Shown piece by piece: positions 50,102 to 51,488 of a stretch of 64,000 nt of DNA. The notes under the pieces are model-generated. The model had not been told where the DNA came from. It ran no database searches and worked only from the letters and a program-made list of their open reading frames with translations. How positions within the stretch are numbered: position 1 is the first letter of the stretch; each line of letters begins with the position of its first letter. Position numbers and translations under genes: made by a program. Source of the DNA: Cadophora sp. MPI-SDFR-AT-0126 (Eukaryota > Ascomycota > Leotiomycetes > Helotiales > Ploettnerulaceae); contig JAGMVK010000001.1 in NCBI GenBank assembly GCA_020747065.1, positions 1,984,001 to 2,048,000 on the forward strand. The letters are read 5' to 3'.

Positions 50102-50745
50102 ATGATATCTTAGAAATTGTAACAACTTTCACCATGATTCATTGGTATCGCGGAGCCGAAAAAGTCGCAGCGTCTTTCGAAACAGGCACGGTACTGGCAT
50201 TGTGAGTCTTCATTTGACATACTCATGCGTGGAGAGTGGATATGAAAGGTTTGGAGGAAAGAAGATAGGGAAGGGAGGATAAACAATTAGATATAATGAC
50301 TAATATCCTGAATCTCGAGGTGATAGAGGGCAGCAATATTAAAGTATTTCAGAAAGTGAGAATCAGAGAAGCTGTTCTTGACCAGACTTGCTCTTGGCTT
50401 TCCTGCAATCTACTAGGGTCCTGTGCAGGAATCTGTGGCCGCCACCCAGACCCTGACATTACTACATAGTAGACTTGTTGAATAATTACAGAACATCCAA
50501 GCGTAGTAAAATGAGTAAGATAAAAATCATTATATACTATATCTACTTTAAGTAAGATTTACAAGAAGGTCGCGGACGTATTCAATTGTTAGAAGTAATA
50601 GAAGTTTGGGGCCGGCCCACAAATTCCGGCTGGTCCCAAGCCAAGAGCAGGGGGGGGCGACACTTGAAAAATTTTACTGAGTATAATAATTAAAATAACA
50701 AACTTTCTGCCACAAATCAGCCTCTGACTCGCTCAGTTGGCTACA
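50102..50745. other. Spacer upstream of the tRNA gene
   Basis: AT-rich DNA with a short G run near 50651. No gene is visible. Confidence 0.6.
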
Positions 50746-50784
50746 CCCTCGGTCGTCTAGTTGGTTTATGGCGTCCGGCTGTAA

Positions 50785-50796
50785 TTGTTCAGTCTC
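50785..50796 (+). other. Canonical tRNA-Tyr anticodon-loop intron
   Basis: Twelve nucleotides directly 3' of position 37, the place where tRNA splicing endonuclease acts. Removing it leaves a seven-base loop CTGTAAA. Confidence 0.8.
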
Positions 50797-50811
50797 ACCG
50801 GAATGTCGCGC

Positions 50812-50870
50812 GTAAGTGCCACATCCACAAAATACAAATTTCTCTCAGACAGCTGTTAACAGTTGTACAG
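50812..50870 (+). other. 59-bp mRNA-type intron-like insertion in the T arm
   Basis: The 5' end is GTAAGT, the 3' end TTGTACAG, with TGTTAAC 11 nt before the end as a branch-like site. Length and signals match the mRNA introns of neighbouring genes. The exact edge is ambiguous by one G. Confidence 0.75.
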
Positions 50871-50891
50871 GTTCGACTCGCGCCTGAGGGA

Positions 50892-51488
50892 CATCTCTTT
50901 TTGGATCTTTTTGGTTTGGCTGGGCTTGTGGGAATCATCCGGCAAGCGAAGATGCTTTTAGTGTGGTGTAGTGTGGGGGTGTACCAGTGAATTTAATGGT
51001 CAATAGTGGGTGCATCGGTGGCGCAGCTCAACCTTCTTATCCGTGGGCTTGATCCCTCGCTAAAGTTCTTGGGTCAACCTTACTGTTTACATCCATTTGG
51101 AGAGCTACTAGCGGCTCGTCTATCCTTCTATTTGCTATTCTTATAATTTTGGATACTCATAAGATTAAGTATAAAGTTAAATAATCCATGTTCAAATCTA
51201 TGATTCATCTCAGGTCCGCGAGGATATTGCTCGCAGTGCAGCACTGTCGGGACTATCCATTTATGATGATCACCAATCCTATCGTAATCATCACAGAACA
51301 GACAAGGAGCATCCAAATACAGATATTCATCTGCTTTGCTTCATCTTACGTTGCTCCCATAGTATTCTGACACTGCTATCCCCTACTCTAACTGATTGTC
51401 TCACGGTCACAACTCACAAGTCATATATCAAACAGGTCCATTGAATATATATCTATTAAAAGGTACATACTAATTTTTGGCACCGCGT
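50892..51488. other. Spacer with possible tRNA relic
   Basis: At about 51010-51066, TGGCGCAGC resembles a box A and GGCTTGATCCC a box B, only about 25 bp apart. No acceptor stem can be built, so at most this is a deleted tRNA remnant. The rest is 3' flank of the transporter pseudogene. Confidence 0.35.
50898..50902 (+). terminator. RNA polymerase III terminator of tRNA-Tyr
   Basis: T5 run seven bases after the discriminator base, with a second T5 at 50908-50912. Confidence 0.7.

Follow-up and report, generated by a model that had tools for sequence, protein, structure and literature searches.

The canonical introns of nuclear tRNA genes lie in the anticodon loop and are removed by an enzyme pathway that operates without the spliceosome (PMC13149111). 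In reviews from 2015 and 2026, tRNA introns are presented as substrates of a protein endonuclease and not of the spliceosome (PMC4390854, PMC13149111). Introns elsewhere in the molecule, in the D, T, variable and acceptor parts and with several to a gene, have been described for Crenarchaeota, C. merolae and nucleomorphs (PMC4090602, PMC3978253), and the text of the 2014 review among these sources (PMC4090602) contains no occurrence of 'spliceosom'. Spliceosomal introns in genes for non-coding RNAs are known from U6, whose mRNA-type intron in fission yeast and others is thought to stem from reverse splicing (PMC10484740), and from the nuclear rRNA genes of ascomycetes, lichen fungi in particular, where short spliceosomal introns are removed in vivo; a 57-bp rRNA-gene intron has also been placed in yeast (PMC8527467). 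The term tRNA has no occurrence in the latter source.

Here we describe a tRNA-Tyr gene of the ascomycete Cadophora sp. MPI-SDFR-AT-0126 that is interrupted in its T arm. It lies in the window, a 64,000-nt stretch of DNA that is part of contig C1 and in which HET and 2EXR domain genes, a content that fits a filamentous ascomycete, are also present (Pfam); the searches reported below covered the assembly of 53.96 Mb in 38 contigs. We find that the insert, at positions 50812-50870, is very probably a spliceosomal (U2-type) intron in a functional nuclear tRNA gene, and that it is one of at least 20 inserts in 18 genes. What the first-pass annotation of the window could not see is that such introns recur elsewhere in this genome, in 17 further tRNA genes and in two genes for U6.

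As in U6, what appears to be a spliceosomal intron sits in a pol III gene, and this genome has both. The two differ in that U6 is in the active site of the spliceosome and tRNAs are not, and in that the tRNA inserts are spread over 18 genes for nine amino acids, some of them within the internal promoter. With the rRNA-gene introns the inserts have in common that they are short and interrupt a fungal non-coding RNA gene; unlike the present genes, those for rRNA are transcribed by pol I. Canonical tRNA introns occur in the same genes as the GT-AG inserts but differ from them in position, in their ends and in the absence of a branch site. The non-canonical tRNA introns of other organisms are of the bulge-helix-bulge type or are tiny inserts, whereas those described here have GT-AG ends and a branch motif, with a full bulge-helix-bulge in 0 of 19 scanned. 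The kind of intron is already known, from U6 and ascomycete rRNA genes; the class of host gene, tRNA, appears to be new. The first-pass annotation knew of no fungal nuclear tRNA with such an intron, and we likewise found none in open-licence PMC texts, although an unseen report in subscription journals or preprints is possible.

Anatomy of the interrupted tRNA-Tyr gene

The tRNA-Tyr(GUA) gene spans 146 nt on the plus strand (50746..50891) and contains two introns; a tRNA-Tyr gene without the T-arm insert (L003) served as the guide to its layout. Exon 1 (50746..50784) comprises the 5' strand of the acceptor stem, the D arm, the 5' strand of the anticodon stem and the anticodon GTA, and includes, from gene position 8, a box A with one mismatch to the consensus. 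It is followed by an ordinary 12-nt tRNA intron of the tRNA endonuclease type in the anticodon loop (50785..50796), placed by ARAGORN with the T-arm insert removed and with ends accurate to within 1 base. Exon 2 (50797..50811) supplies the 3' strand of the anticodon stem, the variable region and T-stem bases 1-4. The T stem is then interrupted by the 59-nt GT-AG intron of spliceosomal type (50812..50870), to which a related insert at the same site in L002 corresponds, and exon 3 (50871..50891) completes the T arm, the 3' strand of the acceptor stem and the discriminator base. Outside the gene, on the same strand, are a TATA-like AAATAA at -53 (50693..50698), an element of a kind common upstream of the tRNA genes of this genome, and a T5 run (50898..50902) that is the probable pol III terminator.

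The insert starts with GTAAGT and ends with ACAG, and it contains a TTAAC at 50856-50860, the second A of which (50859) is at a distance of 11 nt from its end. The unspliced window gave no tRNA call with ARAGORN, and none with Rfam at the gathering cut-off. When the insert is removed, ARAGORN calls a tRNA-Tyr(GUA) with a 12-nt intron, and all 17 pairs of the acceptor, T and anticodon stems form. The first-pass annotation had recognised the gene, delimited the insert, named its three splice signals and proposed that precise removal rebuilds the T stem; on each of these points our analysis agrees. It had also described box B as intact in the DNA, and here again we concur: box B departs from the consensus at one base in the DNA and at two in the spliced form, because the last G of the intron is itself a box B base.

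Interrupted tRNA genes across the genome

In a tRNA family search of the assembly, in which 62 of 1988 candidates were scored, 48 places had E <= 0.001 and a further four had E <= 10. DNA searches with the genome's own spliced tRNAs added seven interrupted genes and one uninterrupted gene (L142), and a yeast tRNA query added three tRNA-Phe genes (L122-L124). The resulting 66 tRNA genes are made up of the 48 and the four places, the three Tyr genes, L116 and L117, L118-L121, L122-L124, and L141 and L142. Queries with yeast and plant tRNAs for Asp, Glu, His and Asn gave no genes in this genome, and the tRNA set is therefore incomplete. Both the total of 66 and the count of 18 interrupted genes are lower bounds, and the ratio between them may be biased in either direction by the way in which the genes were found.

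On this basis, at least 20 GT-AG inserts are present in at least 18 of the at least 66 tRNA genes found, about a quarter, and these serve nine amino acids. The interrupted genes are those for Tyr (the window gene and L002), eMet (L055), Ile (L053, L062 and L059), Arg TCT (L060), Arg TCG (L088), Arg ACG (L090), Ala (L087, and L141, referred to as Ala_b), Thr AGT (L089), Thr TGT (L117), Ser GCT (L116, with three inserts in one gene), Gly (L118 and L119) and Pro (L120 and L121). The other 48 genes were called uninterrupted by eye and from the layout given by ARAGORN or the covariance model. All 12 isoacceptor families with an interrupted gene also have an uninterrupted sister copy in the genome. 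In our assignment by standard tRNA numbering, the 20 insert sites fall in the 5' strand of the acceptor stem (four), the D loop (three), the anticodon stem (one), the variable region (two), the T stem (three), the border of T stem and T loop (two) and the T loop (five). An anticodon-loop intron is present as well in 11 of 17 interrupted genes, and in Ala_b.

Such genes are poorly served by tRNA finders, which miss or misread most of them. Given the unspliced sequences, ARAGORN called five of 17 interrupted genes, of which one was mislabelled and some had misplaced ends. It called all 17 of the spliced forms, two of them with a wrong anticodon label; these calls are weak proof of the junctions, since a cut shifted by 3-5 bases still gives 9 to 16 of 16.

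Splice signals of the inserts

The first-pass annotation saw in the window insert the marks of an mRNA-type intron, and the genome-wide set places this beyond chance. The ends are GT..AG in 20 of 20 inserts, for which log10 P is about -44 with random ends, equal base use and junction slips counted; the start conforms to GTRNGT in 17 and the end to YAG in 18. For ten of the 20 only one junction is possible. Every one of the 20 contains a branch motif (CTAAY, CTGAT or TTAAC) whose A lies 9-17 nt before the end, compared with 1.87 expected from shuffles. Lengths range from 50 to 65 nt in 19 of the 20 inserts. The remaining one, the T-loop intron of Pro_b (L121, C3:319990-320330), has been doubled in length to 116 nt by a long GA repeat, with its splice signals kept. 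The tRNA inserts are similar in size and layout to 16 candidate mRNA introns of the window (median 55, range 45-125 nt), which come from a rough list that contains false entries and was chosen within 45-129 nt. In their ends and 5' splice sites, in the distance of the branch site and in length, the inserts thus have the sequence features by which U2-type introns are recognised.

Compensated changes in the exons

Searches of the genome gave three places for tRNA-Tyr: the window gene, L003 on C21 and L002 on the minus strand of C38. The site is empty in L003, which lacks the T-arm insert. L002 carries a 65-nt insert (GTAAGT..CTAAC..ATAG) at the same base as the window gene. An assembly artefact, which the first-pass annotation had named as a possible source of the insert, is made unlikely by these other two tRNA-Tyr genes, one interrupted at exactly this site and the other uninterrupted there. 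At BLAST sensitivity no other copy of 50812-50870 was found in the genome. The introns of the window gene and L002 are related, agreeing in 37 of 56 aligned columns (z 7.6, 500 shuffles) with most of the likeness in the 3' half, and a single intron gain before the two genes split would therefore be the simplest history.

The exons of this pair differ at six of 75 bases. These six are three anticodon-stem pairs that have changed on both sides, and none is broken. Three compensated pairs alongside diverged introns constitute our main evidence that the interrupted Tyr gene is a working one. At the level of sequence, the comparison establishes that selection has acted on the exons since the gain of the intron, and it contradicts, for the window gene, the earlier suggestion of a dead copy with a reverse-splicing scar, the compensated changes having arisen since the split from the C38 copy.

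The other interrupted genes present a similar picture. Counted over the acceptor, T and anticodon stems of the 18 spliced forms, 302 of 306 pairs are made and four are not. Compared with the uninterrupted sisters, 32 pairs are unlike: 23 have changed on both sides, nine on one side with pairing kept, and 0 are broken, these counts being summed per gene so that a change common to two copies is counted twice. Most of the compensated changes outside the Tyr pair could predate the intron. In the Gly pair, the Pro pair and one Ile pair, the exons are identical and the introns, at one site, are hardly alignable (z 2.3-2.9); selection, gene conversion or recent parallel gains could each explain this. 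Stems have thus been kept after interruption, as seen in the compensated changes of the Tyr pair and in the lack of broken pairs in all 18 genes, and pseudogenes would hardly be expected to yield such a pairing record.

Promoters and terminators

A T5 run lies within 80 nt downstream of 17 of the 18 interrupted genes, the eighteenth, Pro_b, having a flank of 11 nt only, as against 44 of 47 uninterrupted genes. A TATA-like match within 75 nt upstream is present in 13 of 18 interrupted genes (in one of these only TATATA at -10) and in 37 of 47 uninterrupted ones (L017-L064, L122-L124 and L003), as scanned with a loose motif set and without a chance control. No TATA-like motif was seen upstream of the other five interrupted genes, three of which have flanks of less than 50 nt. 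The upstream match of the uninterrupted genes is often AAATAAG, an observation that suggests TATA-led pol III transcription in this fungus.

Boxes A and B were scored against consensus strings. An insert cuts box B in five of the 18 genes, namely Arg TCG (L088), Arg ACG (L090), both Pro genes (L120, L121) and Ala_b (L141), and the full box B of these genes exists in the spliced RNA only. The best box B remaining in their DNA has 3-4 mismatches in Arg TCG, Arg ACG and both Pro genes, and two in Ala_b. Uninterrupted sisters have 0-3 mismatches, the three being found in Ile, so that the mismatch count alone is no proof that box B has been lost. In the other 13 interrupted genes, box B in the DNA has 0-3 mismatches, like that of uninterrupted genes. 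Introns in the D loop lie inside box A of Thr AGT, Thr TGT and Ser and bring at most one extra mismatch. Since box B is cut in five genes, their transcription may lean on the upstream TATA-like element; the cut could also mean that these five are transcribed weakly or not at all. In Arg ACG and Pro_a, a cut box B is combined with the lack of an upstream TATA-like match. TFIIIC-independent, TATA-led pol III transcription has been suggested for C. merolae (PMC3978253).

Other RNAs of the pol III class

Three introns in all were found in two of three clear U6 genes. One gene (L139:1-601, corresponding to C11:486400-487000) has two GT-AG introns, another (L138:700-900, plus strand) has one, and L137 has none; a diverged U6 copy without a T run lies on the minus strand at L138:153-259. 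The 26 matches to 5S rRNA that are dispersed in the genome measure 119-125 nt, none with an intron-size gap. SRP RNA gave a single full-length match, 280 nt against a model of 293 positions, and therefore has no large insert. A 5.8S query had no match in the genome. The intron gains fall on tRNA and U6 genes and spare the 5S genes found.

Proposed processing and alternative explanations

In the account that we favour, pol III would transcribe the tRNA-Tyr gene from the upstream TATA-like element together with boxes A and B and would stop at the T run; removal of the T-arm intron would fall to the spliceosome, that of the 12-nt anticodon-loop intron to the tRNA splicing endonuclease. The anatomy of the gene, the splice and branch signals and the exact rebuilding of the tRNA are shown by the sequence; the polymerase, the removal by the spliceosome and the order of the steps we infer. 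The first-pass annotation had left three options side by side, a spliced intron, a scar in a dead copy and an introner-type insertion, and the spliced intron now appears the best of them.

That the interrupted genes are instead pseudogenes, the introns having landed in redundant tRNA copies that are no longer expressed, we consider quite improbable. Every interrupted isoacceptor does have an uninterrupted sister, which leaves none of the interrupted genes demonstrably essential, and the cutting of box B in five of 18 genes would also fit with loss of expression. Against this stand the 23 doubly changed and 0 broken pairs, the two Tyr genes whose exons differ by three compensated pairs only while their introns have diverged, the identical exons with diverged introns in an Ile, a Gly and a Pro pair, and the retention of T runs and, in all 20 inserts, of splice and branch signals. 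The cut box B also bears on the idea that the genes work but that some, above all those five, are transcribed by pol II or within longer transcripts, and two of the five are without a TATA-like match. This, too, is unlikely in our view, given that T5 runs (17 of 18) and TATA-like matches (13 of 18) occur much as they do at uninterrupted genes and that box B in the other 13 genes is as good as in uninterrupted ones.

Two further explanations concern the inserts themselves. They might be tRNA-type introns outside the canonical position, with a bulge-helix-bulge motif, in which a 4-bp helix lies between two bulges of 3 nt, as the place where the tRNA splicing endonuclease cuts, and introns of the T and D arms do exist in other eukaryotes (PMC4090602, PMC3978253). 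In a scan for the motif, the GT-AG inserts scored a mean of 6.58 of 10 compared with 5.95 for random places, and canonical introns themselves reached only 7.22, the scan being crude, with a modest separation and with some control ends derived from ARAGORN wrong. The full 4-bp central helix was present in the best layout of 0 of 19 inserts, however, compared with 10 of 27 anticodon-loop introns, and GT-AG ends and branch sites, which have no role in that pathway, are nonetheless present in all 20; we regard this explanation as extremely improbable. Introners give rise to many similar intron copies in one genome, and the many gains seen in this single genome would agree with the spread of one such family into tRNA and U6 genes. 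When 18 of the 20 tRNA inserts were searched together, the U6 introns, Pro_b and Ala_b being outside the query, the 16 places matched at BLAST sensitivity were all their own genes, and beyond the gene pairs with an insert at the same site the inserts are alike, by eye, in their splice signals only. An introner origin is very improbable on these grounds, and the earlier proposal of one finds no support.

Origin and implications

With spliceosomal introns in working tRNA genes as the preferred explanation, their origin would lie in repeated, separate gains of ordinary introns, a point that is more weakly inferred than the splicing of the genes. One possible route, already proposed for U6, starts with reverse splicing into an RNA, after which come reverse transcription and recombination. 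The introns of U6 are explained by its position in the active site of the spliceosome; gains in tRNA genes therefore need a broader route, for example reverse splicing into abundant RNAs. Dating the intron sites across related species would make such a route testable. If the introns are spliced, tRNA genes also provide a clear mark for the study of intron gain, since the tRNA must be rebuilt exactly.

Textbooks exclude the mRNA splicing machinery from the making of tRNA, and the many intron-bearing tRNA genes found here suggest otherwise; if splicing occurs, the rule that only the endonuclease acts is broken by about a quarter of the tRNA genes found. The genes with a cut box B raise the question of how pol III finds them. 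As a tentative extension, which we would rate as possible but somewhat short of probable, the spliceosome might be in routine use in this lineage as a second machinery for tRNA splicing, acting on about a quarter of the tRNA genes detected, with gains in tRNA and U6 genes continuing through reverse splicing and return to DNA, with TATA-led transcription of the cut-box-B genes in place of the usual contact between TFIIIC and box B, and with tRNA supply tied to the capacity of the spliceosome.

A hairpin at the probable tRNA-Tyr branch site

The 59-nt intron of the window gene contains a 7-bp hairpin on the plus strand (50849..50866, RNAfold), with the likely branch adenosine, 50859, in its TTAA loop. 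RNAfold of both Tyr inserts places the branch site in the loop of a 7-bp hairpin that is kept in the two, with two differences that preserve pairing. This conserved hairpin around the branch site might regulate splicing.
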